From Bacteroidota bacterium (GTDB taxonomy: Bacteria; Bacteroidota; Bacteroidia; Chitinophagales; Chitinophagaceae), in assembly GCA_018267955.1 (NCBI GenBank), contig JAFDXL010000003.1, positions 12,779 through 50,195 of the forward strand: DNA of 37,417 nucleotides. Direction: 5' to 3'. The number at the start of each line of letters is the position of its first letter. The stretch's first letter is position 1. A program made the translations under genes and the position numbers. A model generated the notes under the pieces. The model worked only from the letters and a program-made list of their open reading frames with translations, did no database searches and was not told the DNA's origin. This document shows positions 11,256 to 34,565 of the stretch, piece after piece.

Positions 11256-11850
11256 AAAAGGGTTGTATGGCCTGGTGCTTGCAGGCGGCAAAAGCACCCG
11301 TATGGGTAGCGACAAAACTGTTATGGCATGGCATGGCCAGGAACAACGCTATTACCTCACTGATATGCTGGGCAAATTCTGCGAAGAGGTATTCATATCC
11401 TGCAGGGCGGAACAGGCACATGGCATTGACGAACATTATAAGGTACTAACTGACAAGGTTGAGGGTAAAGGACCACTAGGTGCTATCCTAACAGCACTTA
11501 ATGCTGAGCCAGACAAAGCATGGTTAGTTGTTGCAAGCGATCTTCCCCTGCTGGATGAAGCAACTATTTTACAGTTGATCAACAATCGGGACTCAAATAA
11601 TATTGCTACAACATTTGAAAGTCCGCACGATGGATTGCCTGAGCCGTTAATTACCATCTGGGAACCTGCGGCCCTTGAAGCGATACAGTCATTAATACAG
11701 GAAAATATATCCTGTCCCAGAAAAGTGCTGATGCGCAATCTTGATAGTGTCAAGATAATTAAGCCTGCAAATCCCGAAGCCCTGCTGAACGCAAATACGC
11801 CTGAAGATGCAATAAAAGTTCGAGAGCTGATACAAAGTAAGACTACCTGA
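11236..11850 (+). CDS. mobA: MobA, molybdenum cofactor guanylyltransferase
   Basis: MobA-type NTP-transferases attach GMP to Mo-molybdopterin to form the dinucleotide cofactor. The 204-residue protein has the nucleotide-binding signature LVLAGGKSTRMGSDK at residues 13-27, the ASDLPLL aspartate motif near 100, and a GLPEPLITIW segment typical of MobA. It starts with GTG inside the end of moaC, 20 bases before that stop codon, with a strong Shine-Dalgarno. It ends by sharing one base with the moeB start. A cytidylyl- (MocA-like) specificity cannot be excluded, but length and motif favour MobA. Confidence 0.87.
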   Translation: MISEENRKGLYGLVLAGGKSTRMGSDKTVMAWHGQEQRYYLTDMLGKFCEEVFISCRAEQAHGIDEHYKVLTDKVEGKGPLGAILTALNAEPDKAWLVVASDLPLLDEATILQLINNRDSNNIATTFESPHDGLPEPLITIWEPAALEAIQSLIQENISCPRKVLMRNLDSVKIIKPANPEALLNANTPEDAIKVRELIQSKTT

Positions 11851-12899
11851 TGACAAGTGAGGACCTAAGATATAGCTGCCAGATGAAGCTGCCCGGTTTT
11901 GGGGCGGGAAAGCAGGAATCACTAAAGAATGCCCGCGTGCTAATTGTGGGGATTGGTGGCCTGGGTTGCCCGGCTGCTCAATACCTGGCAGCTTCAGGCA
12001 TAGGTAATATTATACTAGTAGATGGTGATACCATTTCTGCCACCAATCTGCACCGCCAGGTACTTTTCAATGAATCAGAAATCGGACAGAAAAAGGCGCT
12101 GGTGGCTCAAAAGAAACTTAGTGCACAAAATCCGCATGTTCAGATTAAAGCTTTAGATGTCCGTGTCGATTCAGATAATATATCGGGCCTGGTGGCTGAT
12201 TGTGATATAGTACTGGACTGCACAGATAATTTTGATACCAAGTATCTCTTAAATGACGCCTGTGTTTTGAACAATAAACCTTTGATATATGGCGCTATTT
12301 ATCAATACGAAGGACAAGTAAGCATCTTCAATGCAAGCAATGACAACGGCACGAGAAGCGCTAATTACAGGGATGTATTCCCGGATGTAGATAGCTCTCA
12401 AATTCCGGATTGCAATGATGGTGGCGTGATCCCTACCCTGGCAGGCATGATTGGACTAATGCAAGCCAATGAAGCAATAAAGTATATAACCGGTATTGGA
12501 GAAACCCTGGTGAGCAAACTCGCCATCCTTGATGCACTAACAATGCAAACCCGCATCATAAAACTGCCACAGGAAACCAAGACTCCAATTGATTCCCTTC
12601 CTGCACCCAATAAAGTTGCAACTATTACTAAGGAGCAATTGAATGAGTTTATTGAAAATGATAAGGTACTATTATTGGACGTAAGGACAGCAGAAGAACA
12701 TGCCATATTCAATATAGGAGGTGTCAATATTCCGCTATCATCTATTACTGAAGATTTTATAGTTCCGGAGCAGACGGAAGCGGTCATAGCATATTGTGCA
12801 ACCGGAAAGAGAAGTGCGGAAGCAGTGAAAATATTAAGTAAAAGGCTGCAAGGCCTCAAGGTTTACTCGCTTGAAAAAGGGCTGCAGAACTGGGATTAA
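11850..12899 (+). CDS. moeB: MoeB-like E1 adenylyltransferase fused to a rhodanese domain
   Basis: The enzyme adenylates the C-terminal glycine of MoaD so that sulfur can be added. Residues 1-240 form the E1/ThiF domain: GIGGLG (34-39), DGDTISATNLHRQ with the ATP-binding arginine, LDCTDNFDTK, and Cys188 in PDCNDGGV. Residues about 255-349 are a rhodanese domain with the active-site loop CATGKRS starting at Cys316, suggesting that sulfur is transferred within one protein. The two CxxC zinc pairs found in Escherichia coli MoeB are absent; the first position reads NYRDVFP. It overlaps mobA by one base and its stop interlocks with that of moaE. Confidence 0.9.
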   Translation: MTSEDLRYSCQMKLPGFGAGKQESLKNARVLIVGIGGLGCPAAQYLAASGIGNIILVDGDTISATNLHRQVLFNESEIGQKKALVAQKKLSAQNPHVQIKALDVRVDSDNISGLVADCDIVLDCTDNFDTKYLLNDACVLNNKPLIYGAIYQYEGQVSIFNASNDNGTRSANYRDVFPDVDSSQIPDCNDGGVIPTLAGMIGLMQANEAIKYITGIGETLVSKLAILDALTMQTRIIKLPQETKTPIDSLPAPNKVATITKEQLNEFIENDKVLLLDVRTAEEHAIFNIGGVNIPLSSITEDFIVPEQTEAVIAYCATGKRSAEAVKILSKRLQGLKVYSLEKGLQNWD

Positions 12900-26760: not shown

Positions 26761-27156
26761 TTAGAATTGTTCCAATACGTGATTGATGGTAGAACTGGTA
26801 AGAGGTTTGTTCAGGAATTGTTTTACAGAAGAATATCCTTTTACCCTGGCAATATCATTTTCATTAATAGAAGAGGAGAGCATATAGATATAAAAGTTGC
26901 TTCTGCGATCTGCAGGCAATGTTTCAAACGACTCTACAAACTCAAAGCCATTCATCACGGGCATTTGAATATCTACAAAAATTATAGTTGGTATGTCATT
27001 CGCAGCCATCGTCCTTAAATAAATCAAGGCATCATTAGCTTGCTGAAAGGTGGACACACTTGCACAACGACCTGTATTCTGAATGATCTTTTCAGCTATA
27101 AAGCAATCTAACTTACTGTCATCAACAACTATAAAGTTCAGTTTCTCCTGGCTCAT
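26761..27156 (-). CDS. Single-domain response regulator (receiver only)
   Basis: From ATG 27156 the protein is 131 residues, MSQEKLNFIVVDDSKLDCF, a lone CheY-like receiver. Acidic residues Asp12-Asp13, phosphoacceptor Asp62 in IIFVDIQMP, the switch serine in MLSSSI and the conserved Lys-Pro in FLNKPL are all present. There is no output domain, so it would act by binding a partner or as a phosphotransfer intermediate. One base separates its ATG from the stop of the receiver-kinase gene. The longer frame back to 27195 runs into that gene. Confidence 0.88.
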   Translation of the reverse strand: MSQEKLNFIVVDDSKLDCFIAEKIIQNTGRCASVSTFQQANDALIYLRTMAANDIPTIIFVDIQMPVMNGFEFVESFETLPADRRSNFYIYMLSSSINENDIARVKGYSSVKQFLNKPLTSSTINHVLEQF

Positions 27157-27157
27157 T

Positions 27158-28246
27158 TTATTTATTTGGGATAGCGATAGAAAACGTCGTTCCATCTGCA
27201 GAAGATACGACGTCTATCTTACCATTTAATTTTCCTAATGCATCTTTCACGTTATACAGTCCAAAGCCCGATCCTACCTCCTCGCTATTACCCCTGTAAA
27301 ACATGTTAAATATCTGGTTAATGCTGTTTTCGGGAATACCGATGCCGTTATCTTTCACCACAATATTAGCTATTCCTTTGGCAACATTCACATCCAGTTC
27401 TACAAATTTATTTTCATTATTTTTTACCTGGTATTTAAAGGCATTGGACAACAAATTATTCAGTATGATCTTTATAGATACTTCATCAGAACGGAATGTT
27501 TCTGCCTGTTGTACATTCTTAACAAACTTTACATTGTTCATTTTACTGGTTACTTCGTAAATATCAGAAAGGTCTTTCACAATATCATCGAAGTTAATAT
27601 CAGCAATTTCCACCTCACCTCTCCGTATACTGTAATAGTCATGTAGGTTTTGGATATAATTATCCAGTTTTAGCATGGCATTTTCCATCATACCCATCAT
27701 TTCCTTTACGTCTGCCAGATTATCCGTATGCTTGGCAAGGTCTATAATCCCCAGAACGCTTAATATAGGGCCGCGCATATCGTGGGTGGCACTATATGCA
27801 AATTTGTCCAGTTCATTATATGCTTTCTGCAGCTCTTCGTTCTTTACAGCAAGCATTGCAGTGGTAACATAAAACTTGTATCCCTGGTCGATCGACGAAC
27901 GTATATCGTCCTCAGACCATGGTTTCTTAATATACCTGTAGACGTGGCCGCGGTTGATGGCATTAATAACAGATTCTATATCTGCATAGCCTGTAATAAG
28001 TATCCTGATGGGATTCGGGAACTCTTTGCGTATCTCTTCAAAAAATTCAACACCGGTTTTATCAGGCATTTTTTGATCACTTAGGATAACACTGATATCA
28101 GGATTAGCCTTTAGATGATTGATTGCCTCGGTTGTGTTGATTGCTACAAATATGTTATAATCAAACCTAAATGCGGCCTTGAAGCTGATGAGGTTATTCT
28201 GCTCATCATCTATATATAGTACTTTTATTTTATCCTTACCATTCAC
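27158..28246 (-). CDS. Receiver-histidine kinase protein (REC-HisKA-HATPase)
   Basis: The 362-residue soluble protein has a receiver at residues 1-125 (Asp13-Asp14, phosphoacceptor Asp57 in LSDQKMP, ILITGYAD, IKKPW), a short coiled linker, and a kinase core with His155 in SATHDMRGP, N-box NNLLSNAFKY (263-272), G1 KDNGIGIP (298-305) and G2 GSGFGLYNV (325-333). The receiver in front of the kinase suggests regulation by, or relay from, another kinase. It starts 11 bases after the 7TMR-DISM kinase stop and is followed by a lone receiver, so the three are an operon and probably a phosphorelay. Its receiver is very like that of the divergent gene at 34101. Confidence 0.9.
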   Translation of the reverse strand: MNGKDKIKVLYIDDEQNNLISFKAAFRFDYNIFVAINTTEAINHLKANPDISVILSDQKMPDKTGVEFFEEIRKEFPNPIRILITGYADIESVINAINRGHVYRYIKKPWSEDDIRSSIDQGYKFYVTTAMLAVKNEELQKAYNELDKFAYSATHDMRGPILSVLGIIDLAKHTDNLADVKEMMGMMENAMLKLDNYIQNLHDYYSIRRGEVEIADINFDDIVKDLSDIYEVTSKMNNVKFVKNVQQAETFRSDEVSIKIILNNLLSNAFKYQVKNNENKFVELDVNVAKGIANIVVKDNGIGIPENSINQIFNMFYRGNSEEVGSGFGLYNVKDALGKLNGKIDVVSSADGTTFSIAIPNK

Positions 28247-28257
28247 TAGCGTACGTT

Positions 28258-30450
28258 TTAAAGTGTTTGATGAATAATAGGAAGCTCAATGATAAATTCT
28301 GTACCTTCTCCTAATGCCGAATTTACGTTTATTGTTCCATTATGTTTAGCAATTGTATTATATGCAATAGAAAGCCCTAATCCTGTACCCTCGCCCACAT
28401 CTTTTGTTGTAAAGAAGGGTTCAAAAAGCTTTTTCTTTGTTGCCTCATCCATACCGGTTCCATTATCCTTTATCCTGACAGTTACAGAATCTCCGTTTGC
28501 GCTTGTAGAAACTGTCAGCAAACCACCTTTCGCCTCCTTGAAACGTTCTTTAATAGCATACAGGCCATTTGTCATAATATTGAGAAACACCTGGTTTAGT
28601 TTGCCGGGGAAACATTCTACCAACGGTAAATCACCATAATGCTTTTCAACTTCAATACGATTATCGAGCTGGTTGTTTACGATAACAAGAGTGGAATCGA
28701 GCCCTTCATTGATGTTGGCTTTCTTAAGATCGTCCTCATCCAACCTCGAGAAAATGCGTAAGCCTTTTACAATCTCGGCAGTTCTTGATGAGCCTTCATT
28801 GATACCATTTAAAAGATAATCGATCTCTGTCTTGAGATAGTCAAAATCATATTCCTGTTTCAGATCATCAATTTTCTTTTTCTTCTCTTCAACAGGTTCG
28901 TCACTCAATGTGATTGTTTCGATCTCATTCAACATGGTAATCACCATATCTACATCTCGCTTCAAAGGCTTTACATTAGATGTAACGAAGTTGATCGGGT
29001 TATTGATCTCATGCGCTATGCCGGCAGTAAGCTGACCAAGAGATGCCATCTTCTCCGATTCTACTAACTGCATTTCGGCTTCCTTGAGGTCGCTGATGGC
29101 CTTACTGAGGTCGTCGTTTGATTGTCTTAGTTCCTGGGTTCGCTCCGTAACCTTCGCCTCCAATATTACATTTTGCTCTCTGACAATTCGCGCATTTTCT
29201 TCAAGAGCCTCCATAGCCTGTGCCTGCGATTCTTCCTTTTCTTTCCGGAATATATTGATCTTATCTGCCAGCGCGAAAGACAGCAAAACGATTTCTATTA
29301 CAGAGGCTATCTGTAATGCGAATGTTGATGCTGTATTGTAGGGAACAATATCATAATCTTTCAGCACGAAAATAACCGCTCCTATTAATAGCAAACTCCA
29401 CGCAAGTAAAAAGAAGCCGGCGGGCCTGTAATGCCTGCGATATATCACATAGGATACAAATAAAGAATATAATGAGGCAATTGCCGTATTCAATTGCATT
29501 ACCTGGAAAGCGATGGACCGCATACCCAGTAACGAAAGGGCAATGCTGAAAACGAAAATTCCATTGAAAAAGATCAGGCCATAATGTAGCTTACGAACCT
29601 GTTCTTTAGTCCTGAGAAAATTCTTAATGAATTCAATCGCCGCCATAGCTCCCAGGCAAGAAAATAATGTAGGTCCTTGCAAAGCCAGCCAGGGCGAATT
29701 GGGCCAGAGATACTTAAAAGTGAAACTTTGCAGGGTTGTTTGTGTCAATCCTACCGTTATAATGTAAACAACATATAACAGGTAACTCCTATCACGAACT
29801 GAAAAATAAACAAAGAGGTTGTAGAAGGACATTACCAGGATAATACCCGTAAATATGGCCATCAACAGCTCTTTCTGATAGCTATTGCTAACTACCTGGG
29901 TTTCCGTGCCTAACCTTACAGGAAATACCAACTGCGCTGCGCTTTTTACTCTTAACAGAATCTCTACGGTATTACCGGGTTGAGCACCGGTACTAAAAAC
30001 GTAGTTACGATCGTTATACTTCCGTTCGTAAAATGGCTTGTGTTTATCTACGCTCTCCTGTAATAACAACTTGCCATCCTGCGAAAACACGTAAATATCT
30101 CCCTCGTCAATCAACGGTTGTTCTACAAGCAGCAAAGGTGTTTCAGAAGTATTGTTCTTCAGTTCAAACCTTATCCAAAAAGCAGAATTGGAGAGTGCGA
30201 AATTGGGAATTTTGCTAGTAACAGGCTTGTATGCAGTTGAAGAAAAAGCCTCCTGGTAGCTTAGTGTGTTCCCTTTGTCCTCCAAGACGCTCATACTGGT
30301 GCCCGGTATGGTCACCAATTGATCGTTTGTAGTATAATCCATCCTTCCGGCATAGGAGATACCTGCAGAAAAAATCAATAGTATGGCTAATTTTATTCGT
30401 ACAAACCAGTTGCTTTCACGAAAAAAAATATGCGCTACGTTAGAAGTCAT
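28258..30450 (-). CDS. 7TMR-DISM sensor histidine kinase
   Basis: The 730-residue protein has an N-terminal signal (to about residue 35), an extracytoplasmic 7TMR-DISMED2 domain (about 45-185; ALSNSAFWIRFELKN), seven membrane helices (about 195-395), a coiled coil (about 403-465), HisKA with His480 in LTAGIAHEINNP, and a HATPase domain with MTNGLYA (626-632), DNGTGMDE (662-669), FEPFFTTK and GEGTGLGLS (687-695). It is a complete, apparently active receptor kinase. DISMED2 domains resemble carbohydrate-binding modules and sense small external ligands in characterised cases. It leads the signalling trio and lies 156 bases downstream of the E1-nitroreductase gene on the same strand. Confidence 0.92.
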   Translation of the reverse strand: MTSNVAHIFFRESNWFVRIKLAILLIFSAGISYAGRMDYTTNDQLVTIPGTSMSVLEDKGNTLSYQEAFSSTAYKPVTSKIPNFALSNSAFWIRFELKNNTSETPLLLVEQPLIDEGDIYVFSQDGKLLLQESVDKHKPFYERKYNDRNYVFSTGAQPGNTVEILLRVKSAAQLVFPVRLGTETQVVSNSYQKELLMAIFTGIILVMSFYNLFVYFSVRDRSYLLYVVYIITVGLTQTTLQSFTFKYLWPNSPWLALQGPTLFSCLGAMAAIEFIKNFLRTKEQVRKLHYGLIFFNGIFVFSIALSLLGMRSIAFQVMQLNTAIASLYSLFVSYVIYRRHYRPAGFFLLAWSLLLIGAVIFVLKDYDIVPYNTASTFALQIASVIEIVLLSFALADKINIFRKEKEESQAQAMEALEENARIVREQNVILEAKVTERTQELRQSNDDLSKAISDLKEAEMQLVESEKMASLGQLTAGIAHEINNPINFVTSNVKPLKRDVDMVITMLNEIETITLSDEPVEEKKKKIDDLKQEYDFDYLKTEIDYLLNGINEGSSRTAEIVKGLRIFSRLDEDDLKKANINEGLDSTLVIVNNQLDNRIEVEKHYGDLPLVECFPGKLNQVFLNIMTNGLYAIKERFKEAKGGLLTVSTSANGDSVTVRIKDNGTGMDEATKKKLFEPFFTTKDVGEGTGLGLSIAYNTIAKHNGTINVNSALGEGTEFIIELPIIHQTL

Positions 30451-30456
30451 GCTATG

Positions 30457-30470
30457 ACCGATAGTTCGGT
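30457..30470 (-). promoter_or_regulatory. Small hairpin just ahead of the sensor-kinase start codon
   Basis: ACCGA (30457-30461) and TCGGT (30466-30470) form a 5-bp stem with a four-base loop, ending six bases before the ATG at 30450. No Shine-Dalgarno is seen. It could affect ribosome access, but the stem is short. Confidence 0.25.
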
Positions 30471-30564
30471 ACCATCAATGGGTTAAAAATGTTAATATTA
30501 ATTCCTCTATGCCAACCCAACAATTACCTCACTAATATATTACTCTTTATGATTATTAACAACC

Positions 30565-30596
30565 TATACATCAACATTTAATTATTGTTGATAGGA
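30565..30596 (-). other. Imperfect hairpin between the E1-nitroreductase and sensor-kinase genes
   Basis: ATCAACA (30570-30576) pairs with TGTTGAT (30586-30592), and outside them CCTAT pairs with ATAGG around a two-base bulge. It starts ten bases past the E1-nitroreductase stop at 30607. It may attenuate transcription into the kinase genes; there is no T-tract, so full termination is doubtful. The rest of the 156-base gap is AT-rich with no gene. Confidence 0.3.
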
Positions 30597-30606
30597 AAAC
30601 TGGTTA

Positions 30607-32925
30607 TCAGGCTGTTATAAGGATATCTTTCACATCTTTTCTATAAGGTAATATTTGCGGCTCGGGTGCCTTAAATACCCTAAACAGGTAAATGATAGAC
30701 TCGTTGCCATCGAGACCCTTATAGCCGGTCATCTTCCTGAATTCGTTGTACAGTTCCTTTATATGAGGAGTTATTCCCGGTGGCATATCCGGGGCGTTTT
30801 GCTCCAGGCGTTGAAAAAAGGCAACCGGTACGTTCATTGGATGAAATGCAATATCCAATTCTGTAGCTTTTAACCAGAGTTTTTGAGACGCGCGTCCTCC
30901 ATCGAGAAACGCTTGCTGATCGGTTCCTTCTATGGTAAGCAGCCCCATTGCCGAGGCTGTAGTCATATTTTTTATAGAGGCAGTGCTCAATACCTTACCT
31001 CCATCTATATCACGGAGAATAGCTACAACTTTGGGATCCCGTATCAACCTTACCCCTAAAAGATGGGCCGGGCTTAGCTCTAAAGTGGTGATGCCCATTC
31101 CTGTTTTGCGTTCAATAGCCTCAGCCTCGGTCCAGCGCATTTCCTGATAGGTAAAATCATAATGGCTTTGTGGCGAAAGAACCCTGTACCTGTCTGTTTC
31201 TGAAATAATCCTTCCCGTTGCTTCCAGTATGGCCGGATCATGAAAAAATTTCAATTTGGCCCCCTTGATAGACGAAACGCAGGATTGAAATTGATCGTAT
31301 ATATCCTGCGCCAACTCTACCTGCTGCGTAATGCGCCTGTTTGTGTGTCTTCTGAATATTACCTTTGAGAGATTATCATCTGTATGTGGTTCTATACCTT
31401 CTTCAGATGAACCTTTCGTAAAGAAAGTAAAAGATGCTATAGCATCATCACTATTACCTTCCGGATGATATTTCACTTTTGTCTCAAACCCAAGTTCATG
31501 CGATTTTAGGATAACATTCTCTACAGCGGCTCCTAATGCAATCATAGAAGCTGTATCCTTATAATCCATGAACGAAAAGCCAAAGTATCGATCGAAGAAT
31601 AGTACGAGGACACCTTTTTCATATACCCATTTCCACGGTTGTGCATTACCACCTGACGGGGCTGTACCTGCAGCATCTACAATCGCTGCTACCTGCTCCT
31701 GCGTTAATGTTATTCCACTTTTATCATCGGCACTGATGATTTTTGCGGCTACATCTTTTAACGTTTCAAGTTCCAGCGGATGAAATGGATTGGGAACAAC
31801 ATCAGTGTTCTCCTTCCTTTGTTTATTGCCAACCAATTCTTCCATATCTACAAAATAGCGCCCCGATTCATGATACTGATCCAGCGCTATACGTCTCCAT
31901 ATATCGGCAACGGCCCCACCGCCTAGAGCCACGGCAGAAGCTAATTGCGGCCAGGTAGTGATGGAATGCCCTATCTCAACTCCTGACGCCTTTAAGCGTG
32001 CAGAAATAGTATTTAGGCCAACAATGGGTGCCAGGTAAGGCATCTTTTCCTCATTGGTTTTTAAATGTTTCAGTTTAGAGATATCCAGATGATCTACAAA
32101 CCCATGCAGGATAGAACGATCAGGCTCCAGGTCGAACCGCTCTACATCAATAGTGCATCTATCGCTGGCTTCCATTAGCACCGGGATGCCAAGCTCCTTG
32201 GCTTTTACACGACAAAGAATTTTCATGTCCACGCCGTCACATTCATCTATCAAGGCATCCAGTTTACCGCCTTCCAGGTAAAAAGCATCCATATTTTCTT
32301 CTGTAAGACCATCCTCAAAAATGGTAACTTTCAGATATGGATCTATTTCAGCGATCTCACGGGCTACGGATATCACCTTCTTAAGCCCAAGGTTTTGTAC
32401 CCCGGTACGTATCCTGTTCAGATTTGTTAATTCCAGCAGGTCAAAATCTGCCAGCCTTATCTCTTTGAACGAACGCTCCATTGCCAGTGTAACAGCTACA
32501 GATTGCCCTACAGATAAGCCAATTACACCAATCACCTTGGTGGCTAATATATCGCGCTCACGTAATGTTATCTTATATTGATTGCGACTGGTGCGTACCT
32601 CTATAAATTCCGCTTCATCCAGCAGATGCACCATACGTTTGCTCCAAGGATAGTAAACCCATACCCCGTAATTAATCAAATCCCCATTCGTATGTTCATG
32701 GATCAAAGAATCATATTCTTCATCAGTCAATTGTTTTGTTGGGTTCCTGATCTTGAACATTTCCTGCAATTGAGGCACTATCTCATCGTAAAGAAAGATA
32801 TCCTCAGTTTGCAGCAGTTCATCAAATTGTTTTTTTTCTCCAGGATTATTAAGTCTGAAAAAAACGGGCTTATATAAATTCCTCTGTTGTTCTGTTTTGC
32901 TTTTGGCTATAGTTATCCTATCCAT
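30607..32925 (-). CDS. E1/ThiF adenylation domain fused to nitroreductase (Rv1355c family)
   Basis: The 772-residue protein has an N-terminal region of about 120 residues without a recognised motif, an E1/ThiF Rossmann domain (about 125-350), a linker, and a nitroreductase-like flavin domain (about 400-745). The E1 part has a nucleotide loop GVIGLSVGQS (133-142), the acidic-then-Arg segment ADFDLLELTNLNR ending Arg171, and DECDGVD (228-233). No zinc CxxC pair and no obvious catalytic cysteine of the ubiquitin-E1 kind is seen. The flavin part has APSGGNAQPWKW (422-433) and DGGRASQKLW near 676. The same architecture occurs in mycobacterial Rv1355c, annotated MoeY; to my knowledge its reaction is not established. 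It lies 20 bases downstream of the GNAT gene. Confidence 0.85.
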   Translation of the reverse strand: MDRITIAKSKTEQQRNLYKPVFFRLNNPGEKKQFDELLQTEDIFLYDEIVPQLQEMFKIRNPTKQLTDEEYDSLIHEHTNGDLINYGVWVYYPWSKRMVHLLDEAEFIEVRTSRNQYKITLRERDILATKVIGVIGLSVGQSVAVTLAMERSFKEIRLADFDLLELTNLNRIRTGVQNLGLKKVISVAREIAEIDPYLKVTIFEDGLTEENMDAFYLEGGKLDALIDECDGVDMKILCRVKAKELGIPVLMEASDRCTIDVERFDLEPDRSILHGFVDHLDISKLKHLKTNEEKMPYLAPIVGLNTISARLKASGVEIGHSITTWPQLASAVALGGGAVADIWRRIALDQYHESGRYFVDMEELVGNKQRKENTDVVPNPFHPLELETLKDVAAKIISADDKSGITLTQEQVAAIVDAAGTAPSGGNAQPWKWVYEKGVLVLFFDRYFGFSFMDYKDTASMIALGAAVENVILKSHELGFETKVKYHPEGNSDDAIASFTFFTKGSSEEGIEPHTDDNLSKVIFRRHTNRRITQQVELAQDIYDQFQSCVSSIKGAKLKFFHDPAILEATGRIISETDRYRVLSPQSHYDFTYQEMRWTEAEAIERKTGMGITTLELSPAHLLGVRLIRDPKVVAILRDIDGGKVLSTASIKNMTTASAMGLLTIEGTDQQAFLDGGRASQKLWLKATELDIAFHPMNVPVAFFQRLEQNAPDMPPGITPHIKELYNEFRKMTGYKGLDGNESIIYLFRVFKAPEPQILPYRKDVKDILITA

Positions 32926-32945
32926 TGTAATATCAGGCTAACGTT

Positions 32946-33659
32946 TTATTTATTTAAATTTGGTATTTTTAAATCGTACACAACATCCAGTATCCGCGCC
33001 TTCGGGCCTAGTTCTTCTTTGTGTTGTTGCAGGTTTTTACGCAGATCAAATATAATTTCTCTTTCTTCGGGATCAGCAGTTTCTAATGTTGTGGTATTAT
33101 TAATAATCACCGCGGTAGCAATAAGGTCTTCTTTCGGGTAATAGAATGTGCCGTTATTGCCAAGAAAAGTTGCTATTTCAAAACCTACGCGTGCACTATT
33201 CTTAACAGTCGCCGGTGCGCAAAGCCCAAACAATGTCGTAAGCTGAAGCTGCTCGGTGATAGCAACCGCAGCCCGGCCAAGGTACATGCTTCCGATACCT
33301 AAACCTGCAACCTCCCTAGAGTTCCATAAACCACAAAATTCAGCTGTTCCGGCCTCTGCATATTTTTGTATCTGCTGATGGATTGTTATATCCATGTCTT
33401 TTACTGCCTTTTCAATAGGCAATTCATATTTACCACCTGCAACCTGTACCCGGGCACCCCCATATACTTTCTCTCCATCTTCAGATTCTACAAGTATTAC
33501 ATAAGTGTTAGGATCTTCAAACCACTCTATATTAGCAGACGTGATCATAGTGATGCCGTATATCTTCAACACCTTCATGTGTCCGTCAACAAACTTTTGG
33601 CAAGCTGCTACATCATCAGGCGCCCTGAATGCTTTAATAACAATTTTGATGTAGCTCAT
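32946..33659 (-). CDS. GNAT-fold N-acyltransferase-like protein
   Basis: The 237-residue protein looks like a GNAT-fold enzyme of the type that includes FeeM and autoinducer-synthase-like acyltransferases, although I cannot confirm which subgroup. The beta-bulge and acyl-CoA loop appear at residues 107-130 (AEFCGLWNSREVAGLGIGS), followed by the helix LGRAAVAITEQL, strand LFGLCAP and the terminal RVGFEI (157-162), which matches the 'Y-x-x-x-GF' end of GNAT motif B. LPIEKAV near 80 is also suggestive. There is no signal peptide. It starts the run that contains the E1-nitroreductase fusion (20 bases downstream), so the two proteins probably act on one compound (inference). Confidence 0.6.
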   Translation of the reverse strand: MSYIKIVIKAFRAPDDVAACQKFVDGHMKVLKIYGITMITSANIEWFEDPNTYVILVESEDGEKVYGGARVQVAGGKYELPIEKAVKDMDITIHQQIQKYAEAGTAEFCGLWNSREVAGLGIGSMYLGRAAVAITEQLQLTTLFGLCAPATVKNSARVGFEIATFLGNNGTFYYPKEDLIATAVIINNTTTLETADPEEREIIFDLRKNLQQHKEELGPKARILDVVYDLKIPNLNK

Positions 33660-33789
33660 GGCATGTTAGTTGTTTCAATAAGAACGAATATGAAACGTGG
33701 TGATTGGTGAACGCTTTCTAAAAAAATATCAGTCATTATTATTTACCCTTCGTGCTTTTATTTAAATGTTTCAATAAAATACTGCATTA

Positions 33790-33825
33790 AAATATTATTG
33801 ATTAAAAATTACATCAATAATATTT
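33790..33825. repeat. 13-bp inverted repeat in the divergent region
   Basis: Arms 33790-33802 and 33813-33825 are perfect complements around a ten-base spacer. The arms are pure A/T apart from one G:C pair. It lies 131 bases ahead of the leftward gene and 276 ahead of the rightward one, so it is not a terminator; a dimeric regulator site is one option. Confidence 0.45.
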
Positions 33826-33969
33826 AAAAGTCAAACTATACTAAAAAAATGAAGTACTAATGGGCAGGCATAATTAACCGTAGCATTATTACAGATTTTT
33901 TGCTTTTTTCTCTCCCTATAAGCCCTTATCTGCTAATACTCAGCGTGTTTTCAATTGTAAAAGTAATGC

Positions 33970-33977
33970 TACTTTTG
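33970..33977 (+). promoter_or_regulatory. Candidate promoter -7 element of the divergent receiver gene
   Basis: TACTTTTG is an exact TAnnTTTG. Transcription would start near 33983, giving a leader of about 118 bases that contains a 26-codon reading frame. The -33 region is not a clear TTTG. Confidence 0.4.
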
Positions 33978-34100
33978 CATTTTCTACAATATTAAAAACT
34001 TATGCTTAAACTAATGGTATTTTCCATAAATGCAGTATCTTTAGTTGAAGCATATTTACATACGTTTGAAGCTTTTAATTAAACCATTATCAAACAAAGG

Positions 34101-34565
34101 ATGCCTGCAGATAAAATAAATATACTATATGTAGATGATGAGCAAAATAACCTCATTTCGTTCAAGGCGACCTTTAGGATGAAATATGCTGTGTTTACTG
34201 CCATTAGCGGAGAAGAGGCTATTAAGATATTGGATAGCCAGCCAATCGATATTATTGTAACAGACCAACGGATGCCTAATATGACAGGGGTAGAGTTTTT
34301 GGAATCCATCCTTGAAAAGCATCCGGACCCTATGCGTATTTTGCTTACCGGCTATGCAGACTTGAATGCTGTAATAGATGCTGTTAACAAAGGAAAGATA
34401 TTTCATTACCTTACCAAACCCTGGAATGAGGATGAATTGGATATGACGATAAAACGCGCCTATGATGTATATAAGCTAAAAAAGGACGAAAAGGAACTCA
34501 CAGAAAAGCTAGGCGTTACCAATGCTCAACTTGAATTTCTCTTAAGACAACAGTTACTTTCTTAA
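34101..34565 (+). CDS. Response regulator, receiver domain with short coiled tail
   Basis: The 154-residue protein is a receiver (about residues 1-125) with Asp12-Asp13, phosphoacceptor Asp55 in IVTDQRMP, LLTGYAD and YLTKPW, followed by a charged helical tail (KKDEKELTEKLG) that stops at residue 154. It shares the identical run DDEQNNLISFKA and many other positions with the receiver-kinase protein at 27158, and its tail ends about where that protein's kinase core begins. It therefore looks like a paralogue without a kinase. The divergent position next to the acyltransferase gene suggests it belongs to the same module. A good terminator follows. Confidence 0.87.
   Translation: MPADKINILYVDDEQNNLISFKATFRMKYAVFTAISGEEAIKILDSQPIDIIVTDQRMPNMTGVEFLESILEKHPDPMRILLTGYADLNAVIDAVNKGKIFHYLTKPWNEDELDMTIKRAYDVYKLKKDEKELTEKLGVTNAQLEFLLRQQLLS

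Follow-up and report, generated by a model that had tools for sequence, protein, structure and literature searches.

Why do genes for making a small acylated molecule lie beside genes for a membrane sensor and its phosphorelay? The question is raised by a six-gene block within a 37,417-nucleotide stretch of DNA (the window) from a Bacteroidota bacterium of the family Chitinophagaceae (GenBank assembly GCA_018267955.1, contig JAFDXL010000003.1, positions 12,779 to 50,195). The block combines a putative N-acyl amino acid synthase and a tailoring enzyme with a 7TMR-DISM sensor histidine kinase, a receiver-histidine kinase and two receivers. Across related genomes this module persists while its tailoring enzyme is exchanged, and the membrane input half of the sensor is co-inherited with the type of enzyme. 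We consider it probable that the block is a self-sensing module, comprising synthase, receptor and phosphorelay for an N-acyl amino acid derivative, with a co-inherited specificity cassette. A preliminary description of the window had proposed that the first two proteins produce a small acylated compound and that the kinases perceive or control it, and both the linkage and the co-inheritance reported here lend support to that proposal at the level of sequence.

Genes of the block and their predicted chemistry

All six open reading frames (ORFs) of the block are present in the ORF list of the window with the coordinates, strands and domains that had been attributed to them, five on the minus strand and one divergent on the plus strand:

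32946-33659, minus strand: putative FeeM-like GNAT-fold N-acyl amino acid synthase, acyl-transfer step, 237 amino acids (ORF, AlphaFold model, Foldseek)
30607-32925, minus strand: Rv1355c/TrzS-family fusion of a ThiF/E1-like cyclase (residues ~1-370) and a nitroreductase-family flavin oxidase (residues ~371-772) (NF005901, Pfam)
30451-30606, minus strand: 156-bp gap between the enzyme pair and the kinase trio (ORF coordinates)
28258-30450, minus strand: 7TMR-DISM sensor histidine kinase, 730 amino acids, with a DISMED2 and 7TM input half and a HisKA/HATPase half (Pfam)
27158-28246, minus strand: soluble receiver-histidine kinase of PhcR-like architecture, GTG start (Pfam)
26761-27195, minus strand: single-domain receiver of PhcQ-like architecture (Pfam, Response_reg alone)
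34101-34565, plus strand: divergent receiver, paralogue of the receiver of the receiver-kinase (Pfam, 49% identity)

The genome comprises 4.18 Mb in 10 contigs and holds a single copy of the synthase gene (one match at E <= 1). A metagenome-assembled genome, Bacteroidetes bacterium 43-93, holds a synthase 99% identical to it. No Pfam family matched the synthase above cut-off, the sole trace being a sub-threshold match to DUF3182. Assignment of a GNAT/FeeM-like fold rests on the AlphaFold model (mean pLDDT 87.1), for which a Foldseek comparison with the PDB placed the N-acyl amino acid synthase FeeM (2g0b) first at E 7.4e-07, followed by the N-acyl homoserine lactone (AHL) synthases BjaI, TofI, MesI and LasI. 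LuxI-type AHL systems, which supply this second-best group of structural matches, use a LuxR-type receptor, whereas the candidate receptor of the module is a kinase; their acceptor is S-adenosylmethionine, whereas that of the module, judging from FeeM and TrzA, would be an amino acid.

The fusion enzyme passes the curated cut-off for the Rv1355c family (NF005901; 764 against 476 bits, residues 10-769), with both its ThiF and Nitroreductase domains matched in Pfam. D230 of the ECD motif and G136, S138, V139 and G140 are kept in all 55 ungapped rows of the 56-row ThiF alignment, and N427, Q429, P430, W431 and R526 of the flavin domain in all 36 fusion rows, an invariance that holds within the module alignments. 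In mycobacteria and Rhodococcus, TrzA is described as N-acylating tryptophan, after which TrzS (Rv1355c, a ThiF-flavin oxidase fusion) uses ATP to cyclise the product and O2 to desaturate it, yielding an N-acyl tryptazolone; analogous acyl-oxazolones come from OxzAB (tyrosine or phenylalanine) and TyzACB (tyrosine) (PMC12856293, PMC10404671). Cold butanol-methanol is reported to extract such labile compounds best (PMC12856293). The block has the layout of such loci, in which an N-acyl amino acid synthase lies beside a ThiF cyclase with a nitroreductase-family flavin oxidase fused or adjacent to it; in the window the oxidase is fused and the acyltransferase gene adjoins. Because trzAS, oxzAB and tyzACB make analogous products, the enzyme pair of the window most likely makes an N-acyl oxazolone. 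The module differs from trzAS in its neighbours, which are a 7TMR-DISM kinase, a receiver-kinase and receivers in place of the cyclic di-GMP genes described beside trzAS (PMC12856293), and its relatives replace the fusion by three other types of tailoring enzyme.

The acylated amino acid is most likely aromatic. Our guess is tyrosine, because the near synthases of three loci (L016-L018, 82-86% identical) adjoin an oxidase of the vanillyl-alcohol oxidase (VAO) type and N-acyl-tyrosine would fit both enzymes. The VAO/4-cresol dehydrogenase family acts on para-alkylphenols, with a Tyr-Arg pair binding the phenol. The best PDB relatives of the VAO-type oxidase are chains of the 8s7 series titled 'Oxidoreductase', followed by 4-cresol dehydrogenase and vanillyl-alcohol/eugenol oxidases, and the Tyr-Arg pair aligns in the five alignments shown, all against 8s7-series chains.

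In the sensor, Pfam detected the 7TM region (176.1 bits), DISMED2 (95.2 bits) and HATPase (80.8 bits), with HisKA below cut-off. It thereby carries the PF07695 7TM region, DISMED extracellular domain and kinase output of a 7TMR-DISM kinase, and a search of the genome yielded no other PF07695 match. For the comparisons below, the input half was defined as residues 40-400 and the kinase half as residues 450-728. The receiver-kinase has Response_reg and HATPase above cut-off and HisKA below it; no DNA-binding family was matched in it by Pfam, and the single receiver matched Response_reg alone. By the listed starts, the gene of the single receiver overlaps that of the receiver-kinase by 38 bp. Over 143 amino acids the divergent receiver shares 49% identity with the receiver of the receiver-kinase, in agreement with the paralogy first noted from the translations.

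Linkage of synthase and sensor in other genomes

The sensor lies beside the synthase and tailoring genes in all 46 loci found through the synthase of the window (cut by a contig end in L028 and L057), with the receiver-kinase present in 44. These loci were selected by similarity to that synthase, and two drawn samples of genomes were therefore added. Among 395 Bacteroidota genomes the synthase occurred in 13, each time with the sensor (the window and 12 other regions); the TrzS/ThiF family (E <= 1e-40) occurred in 11 of the 395, by coordinates always beside the synthase. Among 298 genomes of the same order the synthase occurred in 31, four of them shared with the phylum sample, and the sensor accompanied it in 27; the 27 loci new to this sample include 23 with the sensor (represented in L171 by its start alone, where the contig stops). 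Combining both samples, the sensor adjoins the synthase and tailoring genes in 36 of 40 synthase-bearing genomes, usually with the receiver-kinase next, so the neighbourhood check proposed in the preliminary description comes out in favour of a lasting association. Named cultured strains of Chitinophaga also carry the synthase with an adjoining sensor. The linkage exceeds chance, because the sensor is its genome's only PF07695 protein and the linkage recurs in other genera.

Removal of 12 loci with synthases at least 97% identical to others left 74 non-redundant loci out of 86. The sensor is present in 70 of these, the receiver-kinase in 65 and a same-strand receiver in 35, while 48 have a receiver of the divergent type close to the module and encoded on the other strand. 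The tailoring gene sits between or beside synthase and sensor. Two loci vary this plan. In L027 (1061-7793) the single receiver is placed between the synthase and ThiF-nitroreductase genes, a sign that the receiver belongs to the module. In L023 (8753-10696) a tandem pair of synthase-family genes separates the ThiF-nitroreductase from the sensor, the two possibly differing in acyl or amino acid specificity while serving a single sensor.

Plain synteny by descent was considered and is judged insufficient as an account of the linkage: the module stays while its enzyme types interchange, and the flanking genes of the window occur in only 16 of the 46 loci (any of five flanking genes at E <= 1e-20, some loci being too short to show them). 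One locus, L014 (JANLJF010000075.1), is titled Azovibrio restrictus, a betaproteobacterium, and carries the whole module and flanks 60-92% identical to the window; the contig is probably misbinned Bacteroidota DNA.

The 156 bp that separate the enzyme genes from the kinase trio, with a possible attenuator in them, had been named as the weak point of a joint function. The gap is real. An attenuator or terminator within it finds no support, since no terminator-like site was detected (mean of shuffles 0.2) and the predicted folding of its RNA does not surpass that of shuffled sequences (z -0.84). At the junction before the sensor in 69 other non-redundant loci, genes overlap in 32, lie 0-60 bp apart in 30, 61-130 bp apart in 3 and further apart in 4, lengths that use longest-ORF starts, which favour overlap. 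Because this junction overlaps or is short in most other loci (62 of 69), the gap is a local feature of the window and loses its force as an objection.

Both partners belong to wider families. A profile of the input half built from 22 module sensors, with up to four candidates scored per genome, matched in 51 of the 395 Bacteroidota genomes at E <= 1e-45. The 12 best matches all lie within modules, and the thirteenth module sensor (G111, 254.7 bits) ranked below 11 matches outside them. By these profile scores the sensor family extends beyond the module, because the regions of 11 outside matches (L177-L187) contain no ORF matching the synthase profile. For the fusion, 13 records of a plasmid collection match, all of them actinobacterial. 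Of four such regions, L188 on a Streptomyces plasmid carries a ThiF and a GNAT gene with a sensor and response regulator ~5 kb downstream, L190 on a Rhodococcus plasmid has the fusion near a GGDEF gene, and L191 on a Mycolicibacterium plasmid has it beside a hypothetical gene and a P450. On the fourth, another Streptomyces plasmid (L189, 6128-9042), the gene for a 622-amino-acid ThiF-family protein precedes one for a beta-ketoacyl-ACP synthase 3, which takes the place of the GNAT gene, perhaps another acyl-oxazolone-like route. Actinobacterial regions without an annotated 7TMR-DISM kinase, together with the reported position of trzAS in Mycobacterium tuberculosis (Mtb) beside c-di-GMP genes (PMC12856293), mean that the enzyme family is wider than its linkage to kinases.

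In the window itself, 11850-12899 encodes a protein that matches the ThiF family strongly (PF00899, 251 bits); it ends a plus-strand gene run and is unrelated to the module.

The last enzyme and the input half of the sensor

The tailoring enzyme is of four types in the 74 loci: a ThiF-nitroreductase fusion in 36, ThiF alone in 26, a VAO-type flavoenzyme in 7 (including L173 and L176, which have no sensor) and an ICMT-type methyltransferase in 4, with one locus cut (L092, whose contig start still shows the end of a ThiF gene). By parsimony, on one synthase tree with many weak forks, the type changes 16 times, or 15 without L092. One such change lies on the branch of the window, where L014 (87% synthase identity) has the fusion and L016-L018 have the VAO-type enzyme. 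Compared with L014, which has the same enzyme, the window sensor is 48% identical in the extracellular domain, 74% in the transmembrane (TM) part and 78% in the kinase half, and the receiver-kinase is 80% identical. Compared with L016-L018, the corresponding values are 30-38%, 48-49%, 81-82% and 78-80%. In 60-residue segments along the sensor, identity to L016-L018 is 38-50% at starts 201-281 and 72-90% at starts 401-561; a dip to 62-63% at start 601 is shared by L014, which drops to 55% there.

The same pattern appears in trees of four parts of the module, built for the 65 loci with a full sensor and receiver-kinase (31 fusion, 25 ThiF, 5 VAO and 4 ICMT). The trees of the synthase and the kinase half each require 14 changes of enzyme type, that of the receiver-kinase 13 and that of the input half 8; for the four parts in this order a FastTree repeat gave 13, 14, 14 and 8. 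The oxidase and methyltransferase types form single clades on the input tree only. The five VAO loci form one clade there with support 94 (not starred), a clade rejected on the other trees (p-AU 4e-69 for the synthase, 4e-35 for the receiver-kinase and 2e-8 for the kinase half), and the four ICMT loci form one with support 99 (starred). Over 60 bootstraps per part, the VAO loci were a single clade in 40 input trees and the ICMT loci in 53, against none in any of the other three parts.

Within the 56 ThiF loci, partial distance correlation linked ThiF to the input half at 0.365 (0 of 2000 permutations reached this value) and the kinase half to the receiver-kinase at 0.765. The link of ThiF to the input half recurs in each subset, at 0.306 and 0.341 in two gene orders and at 0.295 and 0.450 in two ThiF types. 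These comparisons indicate that the input half, rather than the kinase half, follows the last enzyme. The strongest evidence is where the VAO and ICMT loci fall in the trees, together with the contrast on the window's own branch, because the correlation, nearest-neighbour and regression tests show limits.

Recombination tracts spanning neighbouring DNA might produce such co-inheritance as a by-product, with no relation to a ligand. The tailoring gene does lie directly upstream of the sensor gene in the sensor-bearing VAO and ICMT loci, and the input half is also linked to the synthase (0.21 in the 56 loci), which is a limit of the test. The input and kinase halves are closer still, being parts of one gene, yet with the rest controlled they correlate at only 0.003 over the 56 loci (0.157 within fusion loci), and the link of ThiF to the input half persists where the synthase gene intervenes (the value of 0.306, 1 of 1000 permutations). 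We regard tracts as a very improbable explanation.

The kinases might instead control the enzymes, with the sensor reading an environmental cue (stress, an antibiotic, or a host or algal metabolite) and switching on acyl-oxazolone output, the product serving as an antibiotic, surfactant or stress metabolite. Operon linkage would be equally expected in that case. Sub-inhibitory antibiotics are reported to raise oxazolone output in several proteobacteria (PMC12856293), and no transcription factor or exporter was seen among the ten proteins flanking the window's module. Under such control no association of the input half with the type of the last enzyme is expected; the trees show one, and more for this half than for the kinase half, so that this kind of control seems unlikely to us.

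A number of observations weigh against the self-sensing module that we favour. Bootstrap ranges of the counts of type changes overlap (synthase 11-16, kinase half 11-16, receiver-kinase 11-15, input half 8-12). Over the 56 loci ThiF has further correlations, at 0.178 with the kinase half and at 0.22 with the synthase, and within fusion loci it is linked to the receiver-kinase (0.299); the weak link of input and kinase halves within fusion loci was reached in 31 of 1000 permutations, and three of four subsets show a link of 0.198-0.300 between input half and receiver-kinase. Nearest neighbours agree with those of ThiF in 31 of 56 cases for the synthase, 28 for the input half, 24 for the receiver-kinase and 20 for the kinase half. 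In an all-pairs regression over the 65 loci, enzyme type left identity in the extracellular domain unaffected (-0.05) and had an effect of +2.0 points on the TM part. The permutations ignore phylogeny, and the VAO and ICMT types rest on five and four loci.

Exceptions in gene content point the same way. L173 and L174 have synthase and tailoring enzyme without an adjoining sensor, and L175 probably lacks one, with 433 bp left before its contig end; the contig of L176 stops 154 bp past the gene. Ten neighbour proteins of L173-L176, which include the synthases of L174 and L176, revealed no substitute sensor, their matches being to PKD, TPR, beta-helix, SpoIIE, hydrolase and short-chain dehydrogenase families. 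The receiver-kinase is missing from L168, and in L092 a receiver-PAS-HisKA_3 protein stands in for it. For the four actinobacterial plasmid regions the gene table, which is incomplete, lists no 7TMR-DISM kinase next to the enzymes. An enzyme pair conserved without kinases, which the preliminary description had named as grounds for giving up a joint function, is found in these four regions and in L173 and L174, and not in the other Bacteroidota loci. None of the ten proteins flanking the window's module resembles an output regulator or exporter, and flanks elsewhere are hardly identified. Finished tryptazolones of Rhodococcus are reported to be more abundant in cells than in the medium (PMC12856293), a poor fit to a secreted signal that calls for caution in choosing between cell-to-cell signalling and product feedback.

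Separately from these exceptions, L173 and L176 each have a VAO-type oxidase beside a distant member of the synthase family, with no adjoining sensor (L176 at its contig end). The pairing of synthase and oxidase may predate or outlive the link to the kinase.

Under product-feedback homeostasis, the kinase would read the cell's own N-acyl amino acid or oxazolone lipid in the envelope and adjust its synthesis or the envelope, with no signalling between cells. All of the co-inheritance evidence is equally expected under such feedback. The switch of type with a changed receptor half in near relatives (the window and L016-L018) resembles the divergence of communication groups; this is suggestive only, and we rate homeostasis as improbable.

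We therefore return to the self-sensing module, whose reading as ligand and receptor is preferred because the receptor half tracks the enzyme of the final biosynthetic step rather than the kinase half of its own protein. In this model, the GNAT-fold enzyme would N-acylate an amino acid, and the fusion would activate the carboxylate with ATP, close the oxazolone ring and desaturate it with O2. The 7TMR-DISM kinase would recognise the N-acyl oxazolone or a close derivative through its membrane input half and phosphorylate the linked receiver-kinase and receivers. Because no DNA-binding domain was found in these proteins, output would have to pass through protein contacts or a distant regulator, as PhcR and PhcQ do for PhcA in Ralstonia. 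Related lineages would swap the tailoring enzyme and input half as a signal-specificity cassette, with the synthase, kinase half and relay staying in place. We infer that the product is secreted, bound by the sensor and sensed by its own producers, in a response to population density that would give the module a quorum-sensing-like character.

Relation to known signalling systems

The closest likeness is to phcBSRQ of Ralstonia, described as encoding a signal synthase, a membrane histidine kinase, a receiver plus histidine-kinase protein and a single receiver; as described, neither Phc regulator has a DNA-binding domain, and the same holds in the module (PMC8578825, PMC6989110, PMC11960443). 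The window has this order of synthase, membrane histidine kinase, receiver/histidine kinase and receiver. PhcB is described as a methyltransferase making 3-hydroxy fatty acid methyl esters, whereas the module has a predicted N-acyl amino acid synthase and a tailoring enzyme. The window's synthase is FeeM-like rather than of the PhcB type, and the ICMT-type methyltransferase of 4 of the 74 loci lies beside a FeeM-like gene. The sensor of the module, a 7TMR-DISM protein, is unlike that of Phc, and the likeness to PhcS and PhcR is one of architecture. No PhcA-like target is known for the module, for which no search for PhcA homologues was made. By analogy the module may work like Phc; as its synthase differs, we do not claim membership in that system.

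Signalling through agr falls into diverged communication groups of signal and cognate receptor, and in ComQXPA and agr alike the signal genes vary together with the input part of the receptor while the kinase part is conserved. Diverged groups of a signal with its cognate receptor, as in the module, are described for ComQXPA (PMC4408185). The signals of both systems are peptides, whereas those of the module are predicted to be small molecules tailored by enzymes, with whole enzyme families exchanged.

Oxazolones have been suggested to act in signalling, and their likeness to signal molecules has been noted (PMC12856293). Among the open-licence papers listed in literature searches, judged by titles and the starts of abstracts, none describes a synthase and sensor operon of this kind. 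The novelty first claimed for the arrangement may thus hold for its linkage to kinases and lapses for the enzyme pair, of which trzAS, oxzAB and tyzACB are known examples.

It is an even question, in our judgement, whether these modules form a new family of small-molecule communication systems in Bacteroidota, in which interchangeable enzymes convert N-acyl amino acids to oxazolones or to oxidised or methylated products and move together with matching 7TMR-DISM receptor halves on a constant chassis of synthase, kinase and relay. If they do, bacterial acyl-oxazolones gain a receptor and a function. The module places a candidate receptor beside its synthase, in cultured Chitinophaga as well, so the proposal can be tested experimentally. 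Through the coupled change of its last enzyme and receptor half, the module would also offer a natural experiment on the joint origin of a new signal and its receptor.

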